From Calothrix anomala FACHB-343 (GTDB lineage: Bacteria; Cyanobacteriota; Cyanobacteriia; Cyanobacteriales; Nostocaceae): a DNA stretch of 53,857 bases. The stretch spans positions 1-53,857 of the forward strand of contig NZ_JACJQG010000070.1 of assembly GCF_014696435.1 (NCBI RefSeq). Reading direction: 5' to 3'. Below the pieces are notes generated by a model. The model did no database searches. It was not told where the DNA came from and saw only the letters and a list, made by a program, of their open reading frames with translations. Positions 1 to 41,809 of the stretch are shown one piece after another. The first letter of the stretch is position 1; every line of letters starts with the position of its first letter. Position numbers and translations under genes: made by a program.

Positions 1-2712
1 TCTTTCAATCTGGCTGCTGTCAATGATGCACCCACGGGTACAGCCAGTGCATCCTTAGCAAATGGCACAGAAGATGAGAATTACACCATTAATGTCTCAG
101 ATTTACTGTCAGGCTTTAGCGATGTTGATGGCGATAATCTCTCAGTCACCAACTTGACAGCGACTAACGGCACATTAGTCAACAACAATGATGGTACTTA
201 CACTTTCGAGCCAAATGCCAACTTCAACGGCACAGTTAACCTCAGCTACAACGTAGTTGATGGTAATGGTGGTACTGTTGCGGCGACTCAATTTTTCAAT
301 CTGACTGCTGTGAATGATGCACCCACGGGTACAGCCAGTGCATCCTTAGACAATGCAACAGAAGATACCCCTTACAGCATTAAGGTTTCAGATTTACTCC
401 AAGGCTTTAGCGATGTCGATGGCGATACTCTCTCAGTCGCCAACTTGACAGCGACTAACGGCACATTAGTCAACAACAATGATGGCACTTACACTTTTAC
501 CCCAAATGCCAACTTCAACGGCACAGTTAACCTCACCTACAACGTAGTCGATGGTAATGGTGGTAATGTTGCGGCGACTCAATCTTTCAGTCTGACTGCT
601 GTCAATGATGCTCCTGTTGCTACAAATGATGCTGTCACTACTGTTCAAAATACTCCTATTTCAATTAGTGCCGCTACCTTACTCAGCAATGATAGTGATG
701 TAGATGTTACAGATGTCTTAAGTATTATTTCTTTTAGCCAACCTAGCCAAGGAACTTTAGTTAACAACAATGGCACTTACACTTACACTCCTGTTACTGG
801 CTATTTTGGTTCTGATAGCTTCACTTACACCATCACTGATGTATTAGGACTCACCAGCACTGCCACTGTCAACTTAACTATTAATCCTAATTTCAATGTG
901 ATTAATGGCACTTCAGGTGCAGACAATTTAACTGGTACTACGCAAAGAGATATGATCTCAGGCCTTCAGGGCAATGATACAATCTCAGGGCTGGATAATA
1001 ACGATCTCCTTAATGGTGGCGATGGTAATGATAGTCTAGTTGGCGGTGCTGGCAATGATACTTTGTTTGGAGAAGCAGGTAACGATACCCTAGTTGGTGG
1101 TACTGGCAATGATAGTCTCGATGGTGGATTAGGCAATGATAATTACACCGTAGACAGCATCAATGATATTGTGACTGAAAGTGTAGATGCAGGTACGGAT
1201 TTAGTTAATTCCTCTGTAACCTGGACTCTCAGCGCAAATGTAGAAAATTTGACTTTGAGTGGTACTTCAGCAATTAACGGTACAGGTAACAATCTCAATA
1301 ACTTAATTACGGGAAATACCGGAGCTAATTCCTTAAGTGGAGGAAGTGGTGACGACACCCTAGTTGGTGGTGGTGGTAATGATATCTTAGCTGCTGGTGA
1401 CGGTAACGATCGCTTAGATGGTGGTTCAGGTAATGACAACTTAGTTGCTGGTGACGGTAACGATACCCTAATTGGCGGTACTGGCAATGATATTCTTGAT
1501 GGTGGATTAGGCAATGATAACTACACCGTAGATAGTATTAATGATGTTGTGATTGAGGGTGTAGATGTCGGTACGGATTTAGTGAATTCCTCTGTAACCT
1601 GGACTTTAAACGCAAATGTAGAAAATCTTACTCTCAGTGGTAGTTCAGCGATTAATGGTACAGGTAACAATCTCAATAACTTGATTACGGGAAATAGCGG
1701 GGCTAACACCTTGATTGGGGGAGATGGCAATGATAGCCTAATTGGTGGTGCCGGAAGTGATAGTCTTGATGGTGGATTAGGCAATGATACTTACACCGTA
1801 GACAACATCAATGATATCGTGACTGAGGGTGTAGATGCCGGTACAGATTTAGTTAATTCCTCTGTAACCTGGACTCTCAGCGCAAATGTAGAAAATTTGA
1901 CTTTGAGTGGTAGTTCAGCGATTAACGGTACAGGTAACAATCTCAATAACCTGATTACGGGAAATACCGGAGCTAACTCTTTAAGCGGAGGACTGGGCGA
2001 TGATAGCCTCAATGGTGGTTCCGGCAATGATACATTGTTAGGTGGCGAAGGTAACGATTTCCTTGATGGTGGTGCCAGTCAGGATAGTCTCATCGGTGGT
2101 TTAGGTGACGACACTTACGTTGTCAATATTAGTACTGATGTAATTACCGAAGAATTGGATGCGGGGACAGATTTAGTTAATTCCTCTGTTAGTTGGACTT
2201 TGGGTAATAACCTGGAAAACTTAACCCTAACTGGAACTGGTAACAATACTGGTACAGGTAACAATCTCAATAACATCCTCATTGGTAACTCTGGTACTAA
2301 CACTTTGAGAGGAAATGACGGCAATGATAGCCTTTATGGTAACGATGGCAATGATAGTTTATCTGGTGGTTTAGGTAACGATGTACTAGTGGGTGGATTT
2401 GGTCAAGATCAGCTAAGTGGTGGTTCTGGTAATGATAGATTTGTTTTTGAGAGTTTAAGTGAAGGCATTGATACCATTACCGACTTTAGCCGTACAGATG
2501 ATGTATTAGTGTTGCAAACCCTATTGGTTAATTTGAACTATAGCGGCACTAATCCCATTGCTGATGGTTATGTTAGAGCCGTACAATCTGGGGCAAATAC
2601 TTTGATTCAAATTGACAGTGATGGTTTGGGTACCAATGCTAGTTTTAGCACGTTAGTTACAATTAACAACTTTACTGCTGGTAACTTTAATCAAAGCAAC
2701 TTGATTTTTTAG
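1..2712 (+). CDS. Cadherin-like / RTX calcium-binding secreted protein (5'-truncated by window edge)
   Basis: The reading frame is open from base 1, so only the C-terminal ~903 residues are seen. The first part holds 97-residue Cadherin-like repeats: the [11 protein letters not shown] motif recurs every 291 bp at about 21, 312 and 603, and the copies are nearly identical in DNA. A different beta domain follows to about base 890. From about base 900 there are RTX nonapeptide blocks (GGxGNDxLx type), interrupted four times by a conserved ~65-residue module with [13 protein letters not shown] and NVENLTLSG. The C-terminus ([16 protein letters not shown] onward) looks like the usual uncleaved type I secretion signal region. 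RTX repeats bind calcium outside the cell. The role is probably adhesin or sheath protein; this is inference, and no enzymatic domain is visible in the part present. Confidence 0.9.
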
Positions 2713-2724
2713 GATTGCTGTAAA

Positions 2725-2744
2725 AGGCGGGGGAAACCCCGCCT
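2725..2744. terminator. GC-rich hairpin between convergent genes
   Basis: AGGCGGGG and CCCCGCCT form an 8-bp stem with a 4-nt loop between the RTX stop and the hpnH stop. Read on the minus strand the stem is followed by TTTT, so it fits an intrinsic terminator for hpnH. On the plus strand no T-run follows, so its role for the RTX gene is less clear. Confidence 0.65.
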
Positions 2745-2772
2745 CAATAAGTTATATCAATTCAGCCAATCA

Positions 2773-3789
2773 TTATTTACCAAACACTGTACCTAAGGAA
2801 CGGGCGATATTTTGCGGTTGCATTGCATCCATTGCGGCTGTGGGTTCATAGCCGCAGTGAACCATGCAATCGGCACATTTGGGATTACCGCTAGCGCGAC
2901 CGTATTGACTCCAGTCGGTGTCTTCTAGTAATTCTTTAAAGGTGGCGTAATAGCCTTCATTTAATAAATAGCATGGTTTTTGCCAGCCCAGAACGCTGTA
3001 ACTAGGGCTACCCCAAGGTGTACATTCATAGTCTTTTTCGCCGGTGAGGAAGTCTAGGAATAAGGGGTTGTGATTGAAATTCCAGTTTTTCTTACCAGAT
3101 TGATGGGGTGCAAGAATTTCTCTAAATAAGGCGTGGGCTTGTTCGCGTTTGAGAAAATGTTCTTGATCTGGTGCCCATTCGTAGCTGTAACCTGGGGAAA
3201 TCATCATTCCATCAGTATTTAAGGTTTCCAGAAAGTCGAAAAATTTCTGGATTTCTGTGGGGTCAGTATCCTTAAAGATAGTGGTGTTAGTTGTGACTCG
3301 AAAACCTTGGGCTTTAGCGGCACGAATGGCTTTGACAGCAATATCAAAAACCCCTTGGCGATCAACACATTGATCGTGTAACTCGCGCATTCCATCTAAA
3401 TGGACGCTAAATGTTAAGTAAGGGGAAGGTTGGAATTTATGCAGACTTTTTTCTAGTAACAAACCATTGGTACACAAGTAAATATATTTCTTGCGTTCAA
3501 CTAATCCGCGAACAATCTCATCAATTTGCGGATGTAGTAAGGGTTCGCCTCCCGGAATGGAAACTACTGGTGCGCCGCATTCTTCCACAGCAGCGAAGCA
3601 CTGTTCTGGGGTGAGGTTTTGCTTGAGGATTTCCGGTGGATGTTGGATTTTACCGCAACCGTTACAGGCAAGGTTACACCGAAATAGCGGTTCTAACATT
3701 AATACTAAGGGAAAGCGTTTGCGTCCTTTTAAACGCTGAGTTACCAAATATTTCCCGATATCTATAGCTTGTTGTAAATTAATTGCCAT
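2773..3789 (-). CDS. hpnH: Adenosyl-hopene transferase HpnH (radical SAM)
   Basis: This 338-residue protein fits HpnH, the radical SAM enzyme that adds a 5'-deoxyadenosyl group to diploptene to give adenosylhopane, the first step of C35 hopanoid side-chain synthesis. The cluster motif CNLACNGC gives C38, C42 and C45 (CX3CX2C) for the 4Fe-4S centre. GGEPLLHP follows, and a C-terminal cysteine group ([12 protein letters not shown]) is present as in the family. Full length for the family. ATG start with GAGGAG about 12 nt upstream. hpnA lies 109 bp upstream on the same strand, separated by a heptamer repeat; hpnG is about 5.4 kb away on the other strand. Function is from family knowledge; pathway placement is supported by hpnA and hpnG nearby. 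Confidence 0.92.
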
Positions 3790-3847
3790 TGACTCTGTTC
3801 ACTCCTCGATTAAGTAGAAAAACACCACGAAAAGCTCACTCTTCTAA

Positions 3848-3878
3848 GGGGCATTGGGCATTGGGCATTGGGCATTGG
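3848..3878. repeat. Heptamer short tandem repeat (GGGCATT)n
   Basis: About four copies of GGGCATT lie between hpnA and hpnH. The same heptamer or its complement appears at 9211, 17902, 31900 and 32012. Such STRRs are typical of heterocystous cyanobacteria. Confidence 0.85.
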
Positions 3879-3898
3879 TATTATCGGTGAGGTTTGCC

Positions 3899-4882
3899 TT
3901 AGTTGACATATCCCTTACTTGTAAACCAATCAACAGCATCTTGTAGTGCTGTTTTCAGGGAAGACTGAGGTAAGCCCAATTCTGTGACTGCTTTTGCCGG
4001 ATTGTAATACATTGGTTGTTGCGCCATGCGTACACCATCTAAGGGGACTGAGGGTGGTTTACCTAAGGGTGCGAGAATTTTTTCATCAATCCAAGCAACG
4101 CTCAGGGGTAGCCAACTAGGTACGGCGGTTTGCGGTGCTGTTAAACCTGTAATTTCGGCGAGTTGTTCTAGCAGTTGCTTGAGACTGAGATTTTGATGTC
4201 CTAGAATATAGCGATCGCCTTTTTTACCTCGCTGTAAAGCTAGTAAATGTCCCCAGGCTACATCTCGTACATCAATGAAATTCAGTCCTGTATCTACATA
4301 AAATGGCATTTGTCGCCGCAAAAATCGCAGAATAATATCACCTGTTGGCGTCGGTTTAATATCCAATGGCCCAATTGGGCTGCTAGGATTGACTACAACG
4401 ATTTCCTGACCTTTAATAGCTGCTTGCATAGCTACTTGTTCTGCCAGAAATTTGGACTTTTTATAGTGACCAACCAATTTTTCTAAGGGACTCTGATGAG
4501 TTTCATCTACGACTTTACCAGATTCCCCGACGCCAATGGCAGCAACGGAGCTAGTATATACTGTGCGTTCAATGCCCGCTTGTTGGGCGGCGGCAAGTAC
4601 GTTGCGCGTACCTTGGACGTTATGGTGGTAAAGTAGCTGTTTATCTGTCTGCCATAGGGAATAATGGGCGGCGACATGAAATAAATACTGACAACCTTGC
4701 ATTTTCTCTGCAAGATTGGCATCATTTAAATCGCCCTTGACAAGTTCCACCTTTAACCCTTGCAAGTTTTCTAGGTTGCTGCTATGACGTACCAGGGCTT
4801 TGACTGTATATCCTTCTTGCAGCAACAAGCGAACTACATGGGCACCTATAAAACCAGTTCCGCCGGTGACAAAGGCTTGCAT
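3899..4882 (-). CDS. hpnA: Hopanoid-associated sugar epimerase HpnA-like (NAD-dependent SDR)
   Basis: Extended short-chain dehydrogenase with an N-terminal Rossmann motif VTGGTGFIGAHVV, a YKKSKFLAE-type catalytic YxxxK and a SSVAAIG serine region. It resembles HpnA, the hopanoid-associated NAD-sugar epimerase/dehydrogenase; dihydroflavonol-4-reductase-like SDRs are the alternative annotation. I place the start at the ATG at 4882, which overlaps the stop of the upstream RND gene as TGATG, with AGAGG about 11 nt upstream. A GTG at 4894 would add four residues but lies inside that ribosome-binding site. The overlap implies translational coupling to the exporter. The exact substrate is unknown. 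Confidence 0.8.
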   Translation of the reverse strand: MQAFVTGGTGFIGAHVVRLLLQEGYTVKALVRHSSNLENLQGLKVELVKGDLNDANLAEKMQGCQYLFHVAAHYSLWQTDKQLLYHHNVQGTRNVLAAAQQAGIERTVYTSSVAAIGVGESGKVVDETHQSPLEKLVGHYKKSKFLAEQVAMQAAIKGQEIVVVNPSSPIGPLDIKPTPTGDIILRFLRRQMPFYVDTGLNFIDVRDVAWGHLLALQRGKKGDRYILGHQNLSLKQLLEQLAEITGLTAPQTAVPSWLPLSVAWIDEKILAPLGKPPSVPLDGVRMAQQPMYYNPAKAVTELGLPQSSLKTALQDAVDWFTSKGYVN

Positions 4883-7569
4883 CAAGGATTCCACCTCTTT
4901 TTAAATCGAGGAAACCAATCATCTAAAATGGCGTAGACTACAGGCACCACAATTAAACTGAGGACTGTCGAACTAACTAAACCGCCAGCAATAGCCACAG
5001 CCATAGGCGATCGCAATTCTGAACCCGCACCAAATCCTAAAGCAATGGGAAGCATCCCTAAGATAGTTGAAGCAGTTGTCATCATAATTGGTCTGAGGCG
5101 CACTACTCCAGTTTTTAAAATTGCTTCGGTACGCTCTAAGCCAGATTGACGTAGCTGATTGATATAATCTACAAGCAAAATCGCATTTTTATTTGCCAAA
5201 CCCAGCAAGAAGACAAAACCAATCAGCGAGATCATGCCAAAGTCACTTTTAGTAATGAGTAATGCTAGTAATGCGCCTACTAGTGCTAATGGCAAAGAAA
5301 CACCAATCACTACCGGATCTACCCAGCTTCTAAACAGCAAAATCAGTACTCCGACAATACACAGTGCTGATAAAACTAGAGTAGTGGCAAAACTACCCAC
5401 AACTTCACCCAGACGGGCAGAATCTCCTCCCAAATCTAAAGAAACAGTAGGCGGTAACACTGCTTTAGCTGCTGCTACTACTTCATCGGTAGCATCACCT
5501 AAGGACAAATCTTTGCCTAAGTTAGCGCTAATATAAGCTACTCGTTGATTATTTAGTCGCTCGATTTGAAAAATTTGGTCGTTGATATTTTTTTCACCTG
5601 TTACAGTCACATCAGCAAATCCCGGTAATTTGACTACTCGGTCTTTAATTGCTTTGGCTGTCTGGCTGAGTTCTTGAAGATTATCACCTCTTAATGCCAA
5701 CTGTAAGGGTTTTTGACCACCAGTATCAACAAATTGAATATCTTCCACACTGGTAGTTACATTGGGAAGACTTGGTAAAGAAGCACGAAATTGCTCTTGT
5801 AATTCCGCAGTTGTAATTTTGCGGTCTTCTTTAAGTTTGACGTAAATTGTGCCTTTGTTCGGCTCACCTTCACGAGAACCCACAGTAGTAAATACTGTTT
5901 GCACATCTGGCGATTTTCTCACCACCTCTTCTATTTTCTTCGCCACTTGTAGCGAATCTTCTAAAGGATTAGGGATAGATGAAGTATTTCCTCCCCCTTG
6001 TCCCCCCAAAACTAACTGCGCTGCTGCATCTACTGCTGAACGAAAAGCATCAGGTACAGTTAAAGGAGTGCTGTAAGTAATATTAAATTCGCCGCGATCG
6101 AGTTTGGGAATAAAACCTTTGGGAATCAAAGGTATCAGTGCCATACCGCCAATTAAGCTGAGTAAAGCTAATCCCATAACTATCTTTCTGTGAGTTAAAG
6201 ACCACCGCAGCAAGTCTCGATAAAATTGGGTAAAACTCAGCCAAATTTTTGCTTCTTGGTGCGGGGAATGGGAAGGTTTAGGTTTTAGCCAGTAGCTAGC
6301 CAAAACTGGTGACAAAGTTCGAGCAACTAATGTAGAAGCAATAAAAGCACCGGAAACCGTAATCCCGAATGGCTTAAAAAATTGTCCAACTACCCCACCC
6401 ATTAAACCTATAGGTAAAAAAACTGCTACTGCTGTAGCAGTGGTGGCGATGACTGTTAATCCAATTTCATTGGTAGCTGAATAAGCGGCTTGGCGAGGAC
6501 TTTCCCCATCATCAATGTGGCGCATGATGTTTTCTACATCAATAATCGCATCATCGATGACGCTGCCGATAACTAACGCCAAGGCTAACAATGTAATCGT
6601 TTCTAAGTTAAAACCAAAAAACGCCATGACGATAAATGTGCCCAACAAAGAGGTGGGAATCGCCAAGGCGGAAATCAGAGTTGCTCGCCAATTCCACAAA
6701 AAAGGAAAAATGACGATAATTGACAACACTACAGCTTCAATCAGTGCATTGATTGTTGATTGGGTGGCGTTGTGGATATACTCGGCTTGAGTGGCGGCTA
6801 AGGTGAGTTTGACATCCTTGAGAGAAGATTGCAGCTTTTGGACTTCATCTTCCACTCGGCTGACAACTTCTAAAGTATTCGCCGTCCCCTTTTTAATTAC
6901 CTGAAATGCTAAAGCATCCTTACCGTTAAAGCGAATTAAAGTTGCGCCACCTTCCGGTAAAGCTGCTGTATCAGCTGATAACTGGGTTGGGGAATTACTC
7001 GGTTCGCCTAACAATACAACTTTTAACACTCCTGGCAATTTAGCGATCGCTGGCACAATTTTATCTTTTGCCAACTTCGCCAAATCCGTGAGATTCCCGT
7101 TAGGACTCTCAATTGCATAACTAATCGCTGAAGACTCATTTAAGTTTAGGGGAATAATCTTATACTTTGCCCCCTCAGTTAAAGTCAAATTCTTGATTGT
7201 ATTCTCAACTTGGCGCGTCGATGTTTCTAAATTGGTACCGACGACAAAAGATAAACTAACAGCAGTTTGTCCCGGATAAGTAGATGAGCGGATATCCTCA
7301 ACTCCTTCCAGGGATTTTAACTGCTGTTCCAGTGGTTGGGTAAGTTTTGTCTCAGTATCCAGGGCTGTGGAGATAGGAGCAGTCGCATTTACTACCACCA
7401 CCGGAAAGGTAATATCTGGAAACAAAGCATACTTGAGGGAACTGAAAGCTAAAAGTCCAGCTACCGTCACAGCAATCCAAAAACTTACCGTCAGCCACGA
7501 AAATTCAATGGCCAATTTAGAAATATTGAAGCGTTCTCTTGCAGATTTAGGGCTATTAGGCTTGACCAT
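4882..7569 (-). CDS. RND-family efflux permease (AcrB/HAE1 type), short form
   Basis: Inner-membrane proton-driven exporter, 895 residues; typical AcrB-type proteins are about 1030-1050, so the periplasmic loops are shorter. An N-terminal membrane segment (~25-45) is followed by the porter domain, a membrane block with DDAIIDVENIMRHID (TM4 acidic pair), the second porter half and a C-terminal membrane block with GLANKNAILLVDY. No membrane-fusion or outer-membrane partner is adjacent. The stop overlaps the hpnA start, so both are probably on one transcript. I infer a link to hopanoid or lipid export from this coupling. Proteobacterial HpnN is also RND-superfamily but a different branch, so a general drug or metal exporter remains possible. 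Confidence 0.85.
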   Translation of the reverse strand: MVKPNSPKSARERFNISKLAIEFSWLTVSFWIAVTVAGLLAFSSLKYALFPDITFPVVVVNATAPISTALDTETKLTQPLEQQLKSLEGVEDIRSSTYPGQTAVSLSFVVGTNLETSTRQVENTIKNLTLTEGAKYKIIPLNLNESSAISYAIESPNGNLTDLAKLAKDKIVPAIAKLPGVLKVVLLGEPSNSPTQLSADTAALPEGGATLIRFNGKDALAFQVIKKGTANTLEVVSRVEDEVQKLQSSLKDVKLTLAATQAEYIHNATQSTINALIEAVVLSIIVIFPFLWNWRATLISALAIPTSLLGTFIVMAFFGFNLETITLLALALVIGSVIDDAIIDVENIMRHIDDGESPRQAAYSATNEIGLTVIATTATAVAVFLPIGLMGGVVGQFFKPFGITVSGAFIASTLVARTLSPVLASYWLKPKPSHSPHQEAKIWLSFTQFYRDLLRWSLTHRKIVMGLALLSLIGGMALIPLIPKGFIPKLDRGEFNITYSTPLTVPDAFRSAVDAAAQLVLGGQGGGNTSSIPNPLEDSLQVAKKIEEVVRKSPDVQTVFTTVGSREGEPNKGTIYVKLKEDRKITTAELQEQFRASLPSLPNVTTSVEDIQFVDTGGQKPLQLALRGDNLQELSQTAKAIKDRVVKLPGFADVTVTGEKNINDQIFQIERLNNQRVAYISANLGKDLSLGDATDEVVAAAKAVLPPTVSLDLGGDSARLGEVVGSFATTLVLSALCIVGVLILLFRSWVDPVVIGVSLPLALVGALLALLITKSDFGMISLIGFVFLLGLANKNAILLVDYINQLRQSGLERTEAILKTGVVRLRPIMMTTASTILGMLPIALGFGAGSELRSPMAVAIAGGLVSSTVLSLIVVPVVYAILDDWFPRFKKRWNP

Positions 7570-33882: not shown

Positions 33883-34716
33883 CTATTGACCAACTAAAGT
33901 AATTACCGTGACTTCTGGGGGACAAAATAAGCGTCCTGGGCGATAAGTTCCTAAACCTCGGTTGACGTATAGCTGATTATTTCCTACTTGGTGAAAACCT
34001 TGCGCCCATTCCCAATATCGCACCACTTTCGAGAAATCTCCTAAAAATAAAGACACCCAAGACCGCAATTTTTTGGGTAGTTTTTTCAACAGCTTTTTAT
34101 AGTGAAACACTAAAGGGCCAATACCTGGTAATGCAATATGTCCTCCGTGGGTATGACCAGATAGCTGTAAATCTACTCGCCATTGTTCCAATATTTTAGC
34201 AGTATCTGGGTTATGAGATAAAACGATGCGCGGTGTAGCGGAGTCTATTTGATCCATGACTGGCGCAGGTTGAAATTCTCTTGACCAATAATCAGCTAAT
34301 CCAATTAAGGGTAATTCTTCACCTAATGGATAGGCAATCTGATTCCATAAAACATTCACGCCAATGCTAGTAAAAGCATCTGTAATTTCTGATTTTGATT
34401 GGTTGTAACGGATATCATGATTACCAAGTATGGCATAAATACCATAACGACTTTCTAAATATTTGAGTCGTTGCGCCAATCTGTAAATTGGGGAGGGATC
34501 GTCAGTAACATAGTCACCGGTTAAGACAACTAAATCGGGTTCAGCTTCATTACTACGCGCGATCGCTTCTGCTAACATAGATTCCGATAGCCGCATTCCA
34601 TCATAATGAAAATCAGACAATTGCACAATCTTTGTTCCTACTAAAGATGCAGGTAGATCAGCAATCTTAACCGTGATTTCATCTACCCTTAAATGTCCTG
34701 TAAATAACCAATGCAT
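33883..34716 (-). CDS. Calcineurin-like metallophosphoesterase
   Basis: A 277-residue YkuE-type phosphoesterase with the full dimetal set: LSDFHYDG, LTGDYVTDD, LGNHDIRY, LSHNPD and LSGHTHGGH. A membrane anchor is not obvious. It may act on UDP-diacylglucosamine or another phosphorylated lipid, as some relatives do; this is inference. It is a tandem paralogue of the gene at 34880, with the same C-terminus (YVNRGLGTYRPGRLFCPPEV). The 163-bp gap suggests that each may have its own promoter. Confidence 0.87.
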   Translation of the reverse strand: MHWLFTGHLRVDEITVKIADLPASLVGTKIVQLSDFHYDGMRLSESMLAEAIARSNEAEPDLVVLTGDYVTDDPSPIYRLAQRLKYLESRYGIYAILGNHDIRYNQSKSEITDAFTSIGVNVLWNQIAYPLGEELPLIGLADYWSREFQPAPVMDQIDSATPRIVLSHNPDTAKILEQWRVDLQLSGHTHGGHIALPGIGPLVFHYKKLLKKLPKKLRSWVSLFLGDFSKVVRYWEWAQGFHQVGNNQLYVNRGLGTYRPGRLFCPPEVTVITLVGQ

Positions 34717-34879
34717 AGTCCAATATAAACTCCCAATAGCAGCGCTTACAGCTTACCAAAAAATAAAATCTATCTTAATTTATTGCTATCAATTACAGCA
34801 CTTTTTATTTAGCGAGAAAATATGTAATACGTAAAATAATCAATTTAATTACTAATTTATTTGTAATTTTGTTACTAAA

Positions 34880-35719
34880 TTACTCTCGTTGTAAGGTGAT
34901 GACTGTCACTTCTGGCGGGCAAAATAAACGCCCAGGTAGATAAGTTCCTAACCCGCGATTGATGTATAATTGATTTTTTCCTACTTTATGGAAACCTTGT
35001 CCCCATTCCCAACGATGTACTACAAATTTATCGCCACGAAAATAGGGAATTCGACGCCGCAATTTTTTAGGAATTTTTCGCACTATTTTTTTGTAATATT
35101 GTAATGCAGGCCCGAATCCGGGAATGACAATTTGTCCCCCATGAGTATGACCGGATAATTGTAAATCTACTCGCCATGTTTGCAATAATTCGGCTGTATC
35201 TGGGTTGTGAGATAAAACAATCCGGGGAGTATGATTTTCTAGGTGATTCATCACTGCTACAGGGTTAAATTCCCTTGAGTAAAAATCTGCTAAACCCACC
35301 AAAGGTAATACACTCCCAAATGGATAGGCGATTTCATTCCAGAGAACTTTAATCCCAATGTTATTTAACGCCTCTGTAATTTCTCCTCTTGATTGTTGGT
35401 AACATAGATCGTGATTACCCAATATGGCATAAATACCAGCGCGACTTTGAAGATTTTTCAGATGTAAAGCTAATTTATGAATCGGTTTTGGATTAGCATT
35501 GACATAGTCACCAGTCAATAAAACTAAATCTGGTTCAGCTTGGTTACTAACTGCGATCGCTCTTTTTAACATCGCTGTCGATAAGCACCAACCATCATAA
35601 TGGAAATCTGACATTTGCACCAGCTTCTTACCTTGTAAGGAAGCAGGTAAATCTGCAATCTTCACCGTCAATTTCTCGATACTCAACGGCCCAGATAGTA
35701 ACCAGTGCATAAAGCGCAA
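34880..35719 (-). CDS. Calcineurin-like metallophosphoesterase (tandem paralogue)
   Basis: A 279-residue enzyme with the motifs MSDFHYDG, LTGDYVNAN, LGNHDLCY, LSHNPD and LSGHTHGGQ, so the metal site is complete. It aligns end to end with the downstream gene without gaps of note. MRFMHWLLSGPL at the N-terminus matches MHWLFTGHL in the other, so MHW at 35710 is the more probable start. Substrate unknown; the pair could have split specificities. Confidence 0.87.
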   Translation of the reverse strand: MRFMHWLLSGPLSIEKLTVKIADLPASLQGKKLVQMSDFHYDGWCLSTAMLKRAIAVSNQAEPDLVLLTGDYVNANPKPIHKLALHLKNLQSRAGIYAILGNHDLCYQQSRGEITEALNNIGIKVLWNEIAYPFGSVLPLVGLADFYSREFNPVAVMNHLENHTPRIVLSHNPDTAELLQTWRVDLQLSGHTHGGQIVIPGFGPALQYYKKIVRKIPKKLRRRIPYFRGDKFVVHRWEWGQGFHKVGKNQLYINRGLGTYLPGRLFCPPEVTVITLQRE

Positions 35720-35809: not shown

Positions 35810-36060
35810 GTAACTGATTTACGCATTTATACTTAAATAATACAAATTTGTTTGCTGAAGACTTTTGTCAAGCAGAAGTAAATTCCCTCAACCCTTCTTG
35901 GTTGATTTGGAATAAAATAATACTAGAAGTGTGGTTTTAATACAGAGTTAGCGACATTATTTTTATATTTAAAAAATAAATTACTTAAATATTACTCATT
36001 ATCAAATCTATTTAATTAAACCACTCTGCAAATTTGAAAAAATTTCAAAAGCTTTTATTT

Positions 36061-37227
36061 ATGCAATCATCTTTAGAGCCAGCATATATCCAAGACTTTA
36101 TTCATTTTGAGCAGCACGTAGCAAAACTGATCCATAGGGCGGGTTGGACAGTTGAAACTGCTAAAACAAACCAGCGTGGTTATGATTTAGTTCTTAAAAA
36201 AGACAATTTAGTAGGTGCCGTTCAGGTGAAGTGGCTAAAAAATAATGTGACAGCACCTCAGCTTTTAGCTTTTGCTAATTTTTTAGATTCAGAGGAAGGT
36301 AAAAAATTTAATTTTGGTTTGTTTGTAACTACAAAAGGTTTTGGTGGCCCAGCACAGGCATTAATTAGAAGCTGGGGTAAAAATAGTAAAATCCGTTGTG
36401 TAATTGCTCAAGAAAATAAGTTAATTAGTTTTGATACTGGTATTGGAATTGATGACGAAGATAATTCAGGATACCCCAAGCCAAATCTTCCAAAAAAAGT
36501 CTATTTTGGAGTATTTACTTGTAAAGGAGGAGTAGGTAAAACAACTGTAGCAGCACACTTAGCAGGAGCATTAGCCCTGCAAGGATTTAATATTGCTCTG
36601 GTAGATTTAGATCCAGAAAAAAATTTACAAAAGTTAGTCGGTGATGGCATTTTTGTTCCTAATACTACAGGTATTGGTACAACCATCCAAGTATTTGATG
36701 AAGGTGATTGGCATGAAGATTCTGCCCGTGATTGTCAAATAGTTATCTGTGATTGTTCACCTGCATTAGAGCGTAATCCAGAAGAGCTAGTTAAGCGATT
36801 AGATTATTGCATTATCCCAACAACTTTAAATCCGCTAGGTATTAACAAGCATGGTAAAGTTATTCAAGATACTGTTAAAGAAATACGCGAATTGAATCAA
36901 AATGCTCATTTGTTTGTCCTAGTCAACAACTTTAAAGATCCAGGAGTAAGGCGATTAAAACTTCTAAAAAATGTTTATTTTGATGCTTATAAGGAAATTA
37001 GTAAAACAGATGATAAGTTTCATTGTATAGACCCGGAAGAAGTTTGTATCAGAGCTAGTGACTTACTTTATTACTGGGGTATACATATTATCGAAAACCC
37101 AACAAATCCTGCCAGTAGATTAGCATTTGATCTAATAGGTGGAAGATGTTATCCCCGTGAAGACTTTATCAGTTTAGCTGATTACATTGAAACGAAAGCT
37201 GGTATTGGATTTTTGCGGAATCACTAA
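36061..37227 (+). CDS. Fusion of Mrr-like restriction endonuclease domain and ParA/MinD-type ATPase
   Basis: A 388-residue protein in AT-rich sequence unlike its neighbours. Residues ~10-115 match the Mrr-type restriction-endonuclease fold: HFEQHVAKLIHRAGWTVE, GYDLV (predicted metal aspartate D42), VQVKW (Q55-x-K57, the QxK form) and GLFVTTKGFGGPA. Residues ~145-385 are a ParA-type deviant Walker ATPase: CKGGVGKTT (153-161 region, with the signature lysine), LVDLDPEKN and VICDCSPAL. ATG at 36061 is chosen; an in-frame TTG at 36034 would add nine residues, and neither has a clear ribosome-binding site. There is no ParB, methylase or helicase neighbour. A defence or element-partition role is inference. 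I know of no described system with this exact fusion. Confidence 0.8.
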   Translation: MQSSLEPAYIQDFIHFEQHVAKLIHRAGWTVETAKTNQRGYDLVLKKDNLVGAVQVKWLKNNVTAPQLLAFANFLDSEEGKKFNFGLFVTTKGFGGPAQALIRSWGKNSKIRCVIAQENKLISFDTGIGIDDEDNSGYPKPNLPKKVYFGVFTCKGGVGKTTVAAHLAGALALQGFNIALVDLDPEKNLQKLVGDGIFVPNTTGIGTTIQVFDEGDWHEDSARDCQIVICDCSPALERNPEELVKRLDYCIIPTTLNPLGINKHGKVIQDTVKEIRELNQNAHLFVLVNNFKDPGVRRLKLLKNVYFDAYKEISKTDDKFHCIDPEEVCIRASDLLYYWGIHIIENPTNPASRLAFDLIGGRCYPREDFISLADYIETKAGIGFLRNH

Positions 37228-37271
37228 GAGACTTTTCTTGTCATTAAAAATATATTTAGAAGATTGCAAAA

Positions 37272-38465
37272 TTAACTAATTTGAATTTTTTTCATAATCA
37301 CAACAGATCCAGCTACTACGAAAAAAGCTAGCTCAGAAAGTAAAAATGCTCCTAACGCTCCAATTAATCCTTGTTTAACGAAAAGCGATACTAAAGCCGT
37401 AGCACCAGCAGCACCACCAAAAAATAAACCAGTAGCTAAACCTGCTTGATGTGGTGGTAACTTTCCTAAGCAAAAGGGAATCATGCTGACTAAAATTAAG
37501 CTAACACTGATACCAAAAGCAAAAATATAACCGACGATAAATGTATCGATATCGTTTAATAGTGCTAAACCCATTAAGCCTGTGAGGCTACCTAAGCCGA
37601 GTAACAACGCTTTATTAGCGCCTATTTGTGCGGTCCATTCGCCAAAAATTACAGCAGCCATTGCCGATACAATCAGGATACTAGAGGTAATAAATTCTAA
37701 TCTTACCGCCGGGAATTGACGTTGTAATTCTTGGGGAAATACGGACATTAACAAATTTATTTCTAACCCTGTACCTAAACCAACGACAAACAGTAAAATT
37801 AATAATAAATTGTGAGTTTTGCTGGGAATCTCTTCATTAGCAGAATCAGGCTTCCAGGTATGCGTAGGAATTAGCGATCGCAAAATATATGCAGCCATCA
37901 TTAAAGCGATCGCAGCTAATAAAAAAGTGATTGACGCACCCAAATTATTTAACAGAATTCTTAATATTGGCTCCAGTGAAGCCACAAAGCCAAAGACGAA
38001 GACTAAAACCGCATTAGCCTGGGGTAATTCGCTCATCGGCGCAAACTGGATTAATAATGCGATCGCCGGGCTGCGAAATATAATCATCGCTAATAGCCAC
38101 GCAGTCATTAATACTGGTACTAACCAACGGATTATTCCGTGTAAATTTTGTTCCACTAATAGGGAAATAATCGCCAAAATTAACCCAGCTAAGGTTACGC
38201 CAACACTAATCATCGGTAGGCGATTACCTATTAATTGTTGTAAGCGATCGGAGAATTTACCTATTATTGGTTCGGTAACAATAGCTAATAAACCTTGGAT
38301 AATTGCTAACCAACCAACTAATTCACCAAATTCTAGCCGATGTAAAATTTTTGGCTGATAGAAACTATACACTATCCAACTGAAGATAATAGCCGCCAAT
38401 AACGCCGCTAATCCCCAAACCTGTTGCCATAAAATCTCTGTCCGAGCATCAAAAGTTTTCACCAC
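37272..38465 (-). CDS. Major facilitator superfamily transporter
   Basis: A 397-residue protein with about twelve membrane segments and the loop-2-like motif GKFSDRLQQLIGNRLPMISVG between TM2 and TM3 (positions ~65-85). The second half shows GLATGLFFGGAAGATALVS. Substrate unknown. It is convergent with the Mrr-ParA gene, 44 bp apart, and not part of a visible operon. Confidence 0.85.
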   Translation of the reverse strand: MVKTFDARTEILWQQVWGLAALLAAIIFSWIVYSFYQPKILHRLEFGELVGWLAIIQGLLAIVTEPIIGKFSDRLQQLIGNRLPMISVGVTLAGLILAIISLLVEQNLHGIIRWLVPVLMTAWLLAMIIFRSPAIALLIQFAPMSELPQANAVLVFVFGFVASLEPILRILLNNLGASITFLLAAIALMMAAYILRSLIPTHTWKPDSANEEIPSKTHNLLLILLFVVGLGTGLEINLLMSVFPQELQRQFPAVRLEFITSSILIVSAMAAVIFGEWTAQIGANKALLLGLGSLTGLMGLALLNDIDTFIVGYIFAFGISVSLILVSMIPFCLGKLPPHQAGLATGLFFGGAAGATALVSLFVKQGLIGALGAFLLSELAFFVVAGSVVIMKKIQIS

Positions 38466-39058: not shown

Positions 39059-40000
39059 TTAACGAATGCGATTGTTACCTATAAGTAAATTAGCGATCGC
39101 CTGACTAATAGGTTGACCTGTAAACTGTTGGTAGTAAGTAAATCCCGGTGAAGGATTTACTTCAAAACAGTACCATTCACCCGTTGGTGTCCGGCGTAAA
39201 TCGATACCGCAAAGAGGTAAATTTATGGCTTTTGCCAATATTCTACATTGCTGTTCTACTTCTTGTGGTAGATAACAAGCACGAATTTCTGTAGATTCAT
39301 CATCCTCTGCTGCATAGCGGTAATCATCAGCTTGAGAAACTATCTCGCTGGCGAAAACTTCAGTTCCCACAACATGAACGCGGTAATCTCTCCCCGGTAT
39401 GTACTGTTGAAACTGAGTCGGACACCAAGCTACATCATCAAGTCGTTCTAAATGTTCAACTCCCAAACGGGAGACTTTGCTGCGAATACCGCTAATTGAT
39501 TTATAAATTACATTACCGTGAAGTTGCCAAAAAGCCCGTACAGCTTCAGGATCTGTAGTTACAAGCGTGTCCGGAACTTTGAACCCTAACGAGCGAATTT
39601 GCTGTAATTGGTAAGGTTTAGAACCATTAGCCGCCATGAATGAAGGGCGATTGATAACAAAAGCAGGTGTAATTTCTGACCAACCCATCAAAGTATCATC
39701 AACCGCGATCGCATGTTGCCAAGCTGGACTATTTGCCCCTGATGCGGTAATTTGCGGCAAACGGCGGGAGTCGTAAGGGCGTAAGTAAGCTGCGGTAATT
39801 TCGCTTAAGTCGATTTTTTGATACCAAGTACGAATTTGTCCTTGAATCGGTCGCTGTAAATCGCCTACACAAAGTTCAATTTCTGTATCTAAAATATCTC
39901 GTTGGTCGAGGATGACTGTAGGTACACCTAAATGATTGAGTTCTGAGTAGACTGCTGCTAAAGGAGATTCTTCGGAAATTCCCCACAATAAAATCAACAT
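39059..40000 (-). CDS. RimK-like ATP-grasp ligase
   Basis: A 313-residue ATP-grasp enzyme. Seen: YLRPYDSRRLPQI in the pre-ATP-grasp domain, INRPSFMAANGSKPYQ, the ATP lysine in VIYKSISGIRSK, QYIPGRDYRVHVVG, and the metal-binding FEVNPSPGFTYYQ near 275. These match the ligase family that contains graspetide (MvdD/MvdC-like) and RimK-type amino-acid ligases, which join a carboxylate and an amine through an acyl phosphate. It overlaps the preceding gene by 7 bp and is third of three minus-strand genes. The natural substrate is unknown; the gene at 40708 is a candidate. Confidence 0.85.
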   Translation of the reverse strand: MLILLWGISEESPLAAVYSELNHLGVPTVILDQRDILDTEIELCVGDLQRPIQGQIRTWYQKIDLSEITAAYLRPYDSRRLPQITASGANSPAWQHAIAVDDTLMGWSEITPAFVINRPSFMAANGSKPYQLQQIRSLGFKVPDTLVTTDPEAVRAFWQLHGNVIYKSISGIRSKVSRLGVEHLERLDDVAWCPTQFQQYIPGRDYRVHVVGTEVFASEIVSQADDYRYAAEDDESTEIRACYLPQEVEQQCRILAKAINLPLCGIDLRRTPTGEWYCFEVNPSPGFTYYQQFTGQPISQAIANLLIGNNRIR

Positions 40001-40701
40001 TTGCGATCGCCTCCACTCAGATATTCAAATATGGCATCGCTGACATCTGGTACAGAAATATCAGTCCACAAATCAGCGCCCACAAACTCTGCTGAGGCTT
40101 CGCGACTGCTAAAAGAAACCGTCAACAAATCAACTTGCGCCGCATCAGCCAACCGCCTCGCATAAACTTTTAGCTGGTTATCAACATCACCTAAACAGCG
40201 ATCGCCTACTACAATCACCTTAACTCCAGCTGGTTCGCTTACCTGGGAATTAACATGAGATAACAGCGAACTTTGTCGCCGGACTGGACGTACCGGAATA
40301 CCCAGTTGAGCAGCTGCATAAGCCCATTGTTCCAATCGCCAAGCCGGCCCCAATAAATATGTTGGTGTTGGTCGGTTCAAGACTGGACAATTGAGGCTAG
40401 ACAGCCAAGCAATCAAAAAGGCATTCATTTCCCCTGCCACATATACCCGGTCTTCCGGGACAATGTGTAAAAGTTCCTGTGGTAAAATTGCCGGTAGGCG
40501 AGAGAGAACACCAGTAATTTGATCGAGAGAGAGCGATCGCTCACCTACCACGGCTTGAGAATCTGCCGGAGAATTTAAGTATTGTCGCCATCCCACCACG
40601 GACAAATCTTCAGGTGTCAGAAGGCTTACACCATCAGCCGCCCAATTAGCAACCAGCGCCTCGGCGGCTTTGTCATGGCGACTGGCGACAATAACTAACA
40701 C
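39994..40701 (-). CDS. Unknown partner protein of ATP-grasp ligase
   Basis: A 235-residue soluble protein. It resembles the N-terminal (pre-ATP-grasp) half of ligases in style: LVIVASRHDKAAEALVANW at the start, a RLPAILPQELLHIVPEDR stretch, NAFLIAWLSSLNCPVLNRPTPTYL-type motif (cf. NRPSFMA in the ligase) and VIVVGDRCLG. It lacks a complete ATP-binding motif. It overlaps the ligase gene and starts 6 bp after the gene at 40708, so all three are probably co-translated. I infer a regulatory or substrate-presenting subunit. Confidence 0.7.
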   Translation of the reverse strand: MLVIVASRHDKAAEALVANWAADGVSLLTPEDLSVVGWRQYLNSPADSQAVVGERSLSLDQITGVLSRLPAILPQELLHIVPEDRVYVAGEMNAFLIAWLSSLNCPVLNRPTPTYLLGPAWRLEQWAYAAAQLGIPVRPVRRQSSLLSHVNSQVSEPAGVKVIVVGDRCLGDVDNQLKVYARRLADAAQVDLLTVSFSSREASAEFVGADLWTDISVPDVSDAIFEYLSGGDRKC

Positions 40702-40707
40702 CCTGTT

Positions 40708-41583
40708 TTAATTCCTTGGTTGATTAACTACTTGTTGACCAACAGTGGGACGTTCTTGAGCTTGGATAAAAGACTTACCATTTTGGGTATTACCCATTTG
40801 CTGTTCTATTTGATCCAAACGTTGAGCCATCAAACCAATTAATCGTTGTAAATCATTTCCCGCATTTACAGGAATTGGATTTGCCAATTGATCGATTTCT
40901 GGAAGTTTTTCAACTTGAACTTTCTCGAAGTCTTTCTCTTTTTGAATTTTCTCAAACTCCTTGACTTCTATCTTTAACTCCTTGCTCATTTTGGCTACAG
41001 GGCCTGAAAGGGTAAACAGGCTACCACCAGTAGATGTGGGTATAGAATAAGCCAATTGATCCAAGTCAAGATTGCGAGAGGATAGATTTTGAGGTAAGAA
41101 TGTACCTCTATGTTCTGGTGTCAATAGCAAGTTAACAGGAGTAGCTGCAGAAGGAGAATTGACAAGAATTTCCACATATCCGCGAATCTCTAATTTTGCA
41201 GCTTTGACAATCTCTATTTTGCTAACATCAGGCAGCAAAGTAAGCAAAGCTGTATCATTAGCTCGAATACCCAAACTAAAAGTAAATCTGCTAGGATCGC
41301 CAGGAACAGGGGTGAGATCGCTAAAGTCATTAGTTCCTTGAACATCAGTGATTGTCACTGTATCCGCGATATTTAACGCTGGTGTAGTCGCAGTAAATTG
41401 CAACGTCAGTTTGACATCAGAATTACTAGTATTGGCAATAGTCAAAAAGTAACCTTGAACAACGGTACGCGCAACAGCTTCGGTACCAGGAGCAGTAACA
41501 GGGGTAATTGGTTTGACTAGTAGTTCAAAAGTAGAAACTAAAGTAGGTTTTTGTCTAATGATGCCGATTGATATGTCTGTCAT
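40708..41583 (-). CDS. Unknown beta-rich protein, first gene of ATP-grasp operon
   Basis: A 291-residue protein that I do not recognise. Residues ~1-160 look beta-rich (GYFLTIANTSNSDVKLTLQFTATT, here 20 or fewer core residues LTIANTSNSDVKLTLQF). A charged helical stretch follows (KELKIEVKEFEKIQKEKDF), then a putative coiled coil (LQRLIGLMAQRLDQIEQQM) and a polar tail. The start at ATG 41583 (MTDISIGII) is preferred to the in-frame TTG at 41613, which has no ribosome-binding site. It precedes the ATP-grasp pair by 6 bp and could be its protein substrate or a scaffold. Confidence 0.65.
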   Translation of the reverse strand: MTDISIGIIRQKPTLVSTFELLVKPITPVTAPGTEAVARTVVQGYFLTIANTSNSDVKLTLQFTATTPALNIADTVTITDVQGTNDFSDLTPVPGDPSRFTFSLGIRANDTALLTLLPDVSKIEIVKAAKLEIRGYVEILVNSPSAATPVNLLLTPEHRGTFLPQNLSSRNLDLDQLAYSIPTSTGGSLFTLSGPVAKMSKELKIEVKEFEKIQKEKDFEKVQVEKLPEIDQLANPIPVNAGNDLQRLIGLMAQRLDQIEQQMGNTQNGKSFIQAQERPTVGQQVVNQPRN

Positions 41584-41809
41584 ATATTTGTTTACAGAGC
41601 AACTACATATCAAACTTAACTTTCTAGATTGGGTGATGGGTATTACCCCTTAGGGTACCTTTTTCTGGCAAATAAAACCCTTCTGCACGATCAATCCTTG
41701 TTGACACACCCTACGAATTCTTCTCCCAAGGGGAGAAGCTGCGCGTTGGCGGTTCAATAAATTAAGCTTTTTGGCAATTTTTGCGTAAGTTCTATTTATA
41801 TCAATATGG

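Follow-up and report, generated by a model that had tools for sequence, protein, structure and literature searches.

The window, the whole stretch of 53,857 nucleotides from Calothrix anomala FACHB-343 (contig NZ_JACJQG010000070.1) that was analysed here, carries a gene that joins an Mrr-type nuclease and a ParA-type ATPase in a single protein, as a first-pass annotation of the same DNA had proposed. The open reading frame at 36061-37227 on the forward strand was confirmed to be intact, with an alternative in-frame TTG start at 36034, and its product has the Mrr-type domain at the N-terminus and the ParA-type ATPase, with its KGGVGKTT motif, at the C-terminus. We establish here the identities of both domains, the conservation of their active sites, purifying selection on them and a favoured position on the chromosome from which the gene is repeatedly absent. 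The protein represents a real, conserved fusion family, the parts of which are known and the layout of which is apparently new within the literature searched. Among the matches listed there, none described an Mrr-ParA protein, in line with the earlier remark that no system of this layout had been described, and term searches of PMC12839542 and PMC10853773 gave no match. As regards function, we favour, tentatively and with slightly less than even confidence, a chromosomal, stand-alone, ATP-gated DNA endonuclease that would act against foreign or aberrant DNA. This conserved one-gene union would show a DNA-surface ATPase switch coupled directly to a nuclease. The gene and the parts of its product are as follows.

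36061..37227, forward strand: Mrr-ParA fusion gene of 388 amino acids (ATG at 36061, stop codon ending at 37227), with family members in the Nostocaceae, order and phylum searches
36103..36372, forward strand: Mrr-type PD-(D/E)XK nuclease domain, residues 15-104, with E17, D42, Q55 and K57
36397..36495, forward strand: variable linker, residues 113-145, with low predicted local distance difference test (pLDDT) scores at 126-142 and a ratio of nonsynonymous to synonymous substitution (dN/dS) of 0 to 1.2
36496..37224, forward strand: ParA-type deviant-Walker ATPase domain, residues 146-388
36523..36546, forward strand: deviant Walker A motif KGGVGKTT (K155, the signature lysine, and K160), invariant in 51 aligned members
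37066..37155, forward strand: family-conserved C-terminal patch (L336, Y338-G340, H342, L354-F356, G361, P365), invariant in the alignments

Both domains scored well above their Pfam cut-offs, Mrr_cat at residues 15-104 with 50.1 bits against 21 (E value 3.5e-13) and the CbiA / ParA/MinD nucleotide-binding domain at residues 154-294 with 54.4 bits against 25.4 (E value 1.6e-14). The Mrr_cat match and the D...Q/E-x-K residues place the N-terminal half among the Mrr-type PD-(D/E)XK nucleases, and the deviant Walker A with its signature lysine and the ParA fold place the C-terminal half among the ParA/Soj deviant-Walker ATPases. D42, Q55-x-K57 and K155-GGVG-K160-TT are all present as first described. 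Conservation was assessed in an alignment of 51 members, 41 of the main clade and 10 distant, with the window protein included; L110 (partial, with an internal TAA), L111 (cut at a contig end) and L115 (a 114-residue fragment) were left out of the alignment, the tree and the counts. E17 is kept in 47 of the 51 members and all four nuclease residues in 44; D42, Q55 and K57, on the conservation of which the first-pass annotation had staked its claim, are kept in 50, 45 and 51, respectively. K155, K160, D182, D184 and D231 of the ATPase are invariant. In 14 close pairs, chosen by hand and analysed with a simple counting script, dN/dS was 0.07-0.40 for the nuclease part (0.23 or less in 13 of the 14) and 0.04-0.21 for the ATPase part. 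Both enzyme parts are under purifying selection; the linker, in which one pair was saturated, spanned the wide range given above.

The structural models agreed with these assignments, the N-terminal part matching AF1548, AspBHI and MspJI and the C-terminal part matching ParF and Soj. Likeness of the nuclease-domain model to XisH and RPB5-type entries in the fold library was taken as a common fold and nothing more. The whole-protein model reached a predicted template modelling score (pTM) of 0.60 and did not settle the relative packing of the domains, and its confidence was low at residues 339-346 and 348-363, within the conserved C-terminal patch that includes Y338-W339-G340, H342 and L354-A355-F356. 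The gene is AT-rich, as had been noted, with a guanine plus cytosine (GC) content of 35.4% compared with 40.8% for the whole window. GC lies below the local gene mean in 49 of 51 family members, by 4.5 points on average, and this test is conservative, as gene-length stretches of N in a few loci pulled the local mean down.

Each half of the protein belongs to a recognised family, and the combination is unnamed in the Pfam, PADLOC, PHROGs and NCBIfam libraries searched. PADLOC-DB returned single-domain matches only, the best at 5e-06, and no full-length match to a listed known defence protein. In PHROGs the ATPase half matched a ParA-like partition protein (1e-17), and the nuclease half gave weak matches to families of unknown function. 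With the NCBIfam ParA partition model the score was 58.3 bits, where the cut-off is 180. The family nuclease profile aligns to the E. coli Mrr stretch QAK...GVFITTSGF (23.3 bits in a one-sequence test). E. coli Mrr, a type IV restriction enzyme, however, has a separate recognition domain and no ATPase, whereas in the fusion protein the catalytic core comes first and the ParA ATPase follows; a Pfam search at an E value of 0.1, checked for a separate DNA-recognition domain, returned nuclease and P-loop NTPase families only. The window's own genome holds two Mrr_cat places, the fusion gene and a 1582-residue frame. Unlike ParF / TP228 ParA and Soj, the fusion protein adds a nuclease and the conserved C-terminal patch, and no ParB gene was found among its eight scanned neighbours. 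In contrast to Avs4, in which a nuclease is joined to a STAND NTPase, its ATPase is ParA-type, and 388 residues leave no long C-terminal sensor. The NTPase region exceeded the ParA/CbiA-type cut-off, while nSTAND3 reached 13.9 bits against 27.2, which sets the protein apart from the Avs family.

In the cyanobacterial genome sets covered, with a few candidates scored per genome and the window's own genome included in each count, the fusion protein was found in 39 of 218 Nostocaceae genomes at an E value of 1e-30; with the threshold at 1e-20, the order set gave 37 positive genomes among 388 and the phylum set 11 among 386. With the Nostocaceae limited to genomes of 90% or higher completeness and 5% or lower contamination, the count was 38 of 207. 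The window protein is 71-86% identical to the other family members, and a genome-contig scan with it gave two close Nostoc loci. In the order set, a main-clade member, with 60-100% identity, occurs in 31 of the 37 positive genomes and a distant one, with 43-47%, in 10, four genomes having both; distant members outside the order occur in G579 (45%) and G726 (40%). In the tree, the host families f8, f20 and f15 each occupy a single branch (93/81 for f15) and 25 of the 26 f1 rows group together (99/97), the exceptions to host families being L099 and L085. The L099 copy, from family f1, clusters with the f15 rows (91/82), has transposase-like genes around it and may represent a transfer. With midpoint rooting the ten aligned distant rows split into two groups of five, so the distant members may not form one clade.

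The gene occupies a preferred place on the chromosome, for which the following features serve as anchors.

34880..35719, reverse strand: calcineurin-like phosphoesterase, head-to-head neighbour of the fusion gene (slot anchor, not a proposed partner)
33883..34716, reverse strand: second, tandem phosphoesterase copy (slot anchor)
37272..38465, reverse strand: major facilitator superfamily (MFS) transporter, the other flank of the slot (anchor)
35873..37267, no strand assigned: presence/absence unit, missing in the close relative G012 (locus L116), where the flanks are 96.1% and 96.2% identical

Of 26 Nostocaceae loci that were retrieved from the 39 positive genomes, the window included, 21 have the fusion gene head to head with the phosphoesterase gene, and the same-genus genomes G014, G017 and G018 carry it in this slot. 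In G012 the phosphoesterase is 97% identical to that of the window, yet 35873-37267 is absent there, and G013 has a similar gap. A phosphoesterase was retained in 20 of 20 gene-less genomes tested, and in many relatives the tandem copies at 33883-35719 are retained as a pair. The largely host-congruent tree, the preferred slot and the recurrent absence fit mainly vertical descent with many losses. A mobile cassette was rejected as the general mode, since the tree runs mostly by host family and visual inspection of the displayed ends at the L116 empty site showed no target duplication or inverted repeat. Absence from 179 of 218 Nostocaceae genomes, together with the clean gap in a near relative, makes the gene dispensable, and it stands alone.

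These patterns bear on a role in genome maintenance, in which the ParA half would ride the polyploid nucleoid while the nuclease half processed branched, modified or entangled chromosomal DNA during segregation or repair. Such a role would agree with the count of one main-clade match per genome across the 39 positive Nostocaceae (two of which add a distant-set match), with the phosphoesterase slot, the largely host-congruent tree and the identity of 71-86% to other members, and with further matches of the N-terminal model to Holliday-junction resolvases and EndoMS. The absence of the gene from most Nostocaceae, also among the quality-filtered genomes, and from a near relative argues against it, and we regard this explanation as possible but doubtful. 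If true, it would give a clue to the processing and sorting of the many chromosome copies in polyploid cyanobacteria, a poorly understood matter.

ParA ATPases position cargo and Mrr domains cut DNA. ParA/Soj proteins form ATP-sandwich dimers that bind DNA without sequence preference and are released upon hydrolysis, and restriction-type nucleases usually require two domains to cut both strands. For the favoured ATP-gated endonuclease we infer each step, from dimerisation, DNA binding and cutting to the target and the defence role. The C-terminal half would be expected to form an ATP-sandwich dimer and to bind DNA without sequence preference, carrying on its variable linker an Mrr-type catalytic core that apparently lacks the E. 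coli Mrr recognition domain. ATP-driven dimerisation would then bring a pair of nuclease domains to the same DNA and license cutting, and ATP hydrolysis would reset the nuclease. The enzyme may interfere with phage, plasmid or damaged DNA as an accessory nuclease of innate immunity. A defence role is plausible and, if true, would give filamentous and other cyanobacteria a compact system consisting of one gene. The interpretation in the first-pass annotation stands in part: the fusion is genuine and stand-alone and both of its sites are conserved, but the one-gene defence system remains a hypothesis, the neighbours, in partial lists, being mainly non-defence genes and the Shango defence cassette described below lying beside the empty slot as well.

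Several observations weigh against the favoured reading. In its host-congruent tree and its preferred address the gene differs from typical mobile defence genes. Q55 is replaced by H, C or A in six members, five of them in one subclade with support of 100/99 (L077, L078, L081, L100 and L101) and the sixth being L094, and E17 is lost in four, with K in L077, L094 and L100 and with D42 also missing in L114; a degraded nuclease was nevertheless rejected for the family as a whole on residue conservation. Of the 181 clusters located within four genes, the neighbour scan covered 147, with proteins shorter than 100 or longer than 900 residues or containing N removed, and its results comprise 25 of 58 PADLOC and 25 of 219 Pfam families; they carry no claim on ParB. 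Each of the 25 listed PADLOC families (1e-15) had a single member, and the listed Pfam families were chiefly metabolic, transport and regulatory. SngB of Shango was found in 98 of 388 order genomes, and among 20 phosphoesterase loci of gene-less genomes six (L122-L125, L133 and L134) had SngC within the same 18-20 kb, with SngA and SngB also present in L122, L123 and L125.

Shango nevertheless lies near the fusion gene in some genomes. Seven of the 40 main-clade loci (L075, L077, L078, L082, L083, L084 and L099) have SngA, SngB and SngC together, and L086 and L087 have SngA alone; in L083 the PADLOC matches were 9.1e-251 for SngC, 1.1e-173 for SngB and 9.2e-14 for SngA. The L083 cassette spans 1514-6403, and a DUF815 AAA gene stands alongside in six of the seven, the L099 stretch ending first. 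At 1e-60, SngB was present in 14 of 31 main-clade order genomes, within 10 kb of the fusion gene in five, far away on the same contig in four, and on another contig of a draft assembly in five; in the window genome it lies on a separate contig, C123. Shango has no domain in common with the fusion protein, which is neither SngA, SngB nor SngC and does not regularly accompany them. The cassettes occur in two families and in opposite orders, but the same synteny exists without the fusion gene, and Shango was rejected as specific evidence of a functional partner. Because SngB is so widespread in the order and SngC stands at gene-less loci, the adjacency is old synteny and no proof of common function. 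The frequency of SngB in the order also suggests that Shango has long been resident as a cluster in the chromosomes of these cyanobacteria. The examination of homologue neighbourhoods for defence islands, suggested in the first-pass annotation, thus did find Shango, but also beside the empty slot and among other neighbours that are mainly non-defence.

Around the window gene, eight neighbours were scanned: the two phosphoesterases, the MFS transporter, an ATP-grasp protein, a tetratricopeptide repeat (TPR) protein, a desaturase and two proteins without a Pfam family over cut-off. None of the eight was a ParB, a methylase or a helicase, which bears out the gene's description as isolated and sets it apart from a ParAB partition locus. 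The lack of ParB there speaks against the idea that the gene is a partition factor of plasmid or phage descent whose nuclease domain serves as a passive DNA-binding module. In favour of that idea, five plasmid ParA matches were found, and a ParB gene adjoins both of the two inspected; a ParB_N protein (6.9e-07) also lies about 6 kb from the L104 distant member, at L104:15944-17272, and the L107 neighbourhood holds a further member of its cluster. However, coverage of 80% was reached in 0 of 5 plasmid records with the window query and in 0 of 1153 with the distant-set query, the phage records gave no match to the fusion protein, and the nuclease site is conserved and under purifying selection. 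Viral scans gave no full-length relative, and in a profile-based viral scan 0 of 80 loci, the best 80 of 242, carried the nuclease profile at an E value of 0.01. A plasmid, phage or viral origin was rejected, as these searches gave no full-length match. The partition remnant put forward in the first-pass annotation is not supported, given the chromosomal slot and the largely host-congruent tree, and we consider it highly improbable. Homologues beside ParB on plasmids with a degraded nuclease site, which the same annotation had named as telling against a fused nuclease system, were not seen, as no full-length plasmid relative exists in the collection searched.

By analogy with partition systems, the ATPase half could act as a 'decoy ParA', recruited to an invader's ParB-parS complexes and delivering the Mrr nuclease, so that plasmids or plasmid-like phages would be cut there. 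We hold this to be quite unlikely; if true, the invader's own segregation machinery would mark it for cutting.

A further explanation is a toxin-antitoxin-like or abortive unit, in which the nuclease would be kept in check by the ATPase half until ATP was lost or a phage factor bound, whereupon suicidal DNA cutting would be set free. PMC3710099 postulates that a HEPN gene (MAE_18760) and an adjacent gene for a ParA/Soj-like ATPase form a toxin and antitoxin, which is the nearest published idea, in the literature searched, of a ParA-type ATPase running a nuclease. Like the fusion, that pair, by the paper's proposal, combines a nuclease with an ATPase of the ParA/Soj type into one unit; it differs in comprising two genes and a HEPN RNase, whereas the fusion is one gene with an Mrr-type nuclease. 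The distant member L112 (genome G270) carries a C-terminal HEPN_Swt1 domain (1.1e-36), which would speak for a conflict role. The HEPN-bearing query matched 72 plasmid records through HEPN_Swt1 without the rest of the protein, none over 80% of the query. Against a toxin-like unit, the precedent is itself a prediction, and restraint within one chain is unreadable from sequence while the model leaves domain packing unsettled; we judge it unlikely. In PMC7159879, MinD/ParA-like domains in conflict systems are predicted to be inactive, in contrast to the intact ATPase site of the fusion protein.

Some further observations concern the surroundings of the distant members and the neighbour clusters. 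At L112:8504-10165 a single chain carries three domains, Mrr, ParA and HEPN_Swt1, and an NYN-domain gene lies near it. PIN and helix-turn-helix (HTH) genes stand upstream of the distant member in L104, and in L103, L104, L105 and L107, from two cyanobacterial families, the distant member adjoins a large neighbour (c24) of 1227-1249 residues, magnesium-chelatase-like by eye. Listed PADLOC matches among neighbours were SngB, SngC, BREX-type kin, kinases, a Cas12-like protein, SWIM_XIII, HEAT-ARM_XIII and Csx1; the Cas12-like match is presumably a transposon TnpB. One cluster matched SWIM_XIII (1.2e-242) and another Csx1 (2.3e-35), the source loci of which were not traced among ten neighbours tried. 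The listed Pfam families include Uma2 (three clusters) and transposase (two clusters). In the window, at 39059-41613, an ATP-grasp gene is preceded by same-strand genes of 235 and 301 residues without a Pfam family over cut-off. Finally, genes of 348 and 660 residues, the L081 copies of which matched nothing in Pfam at 1e-5 or in PADLOC at 1e-15, lie co-directionally and directly downstream of the fusion gene at L081:5435-8538 and L101:5579-8679, both in one genus.
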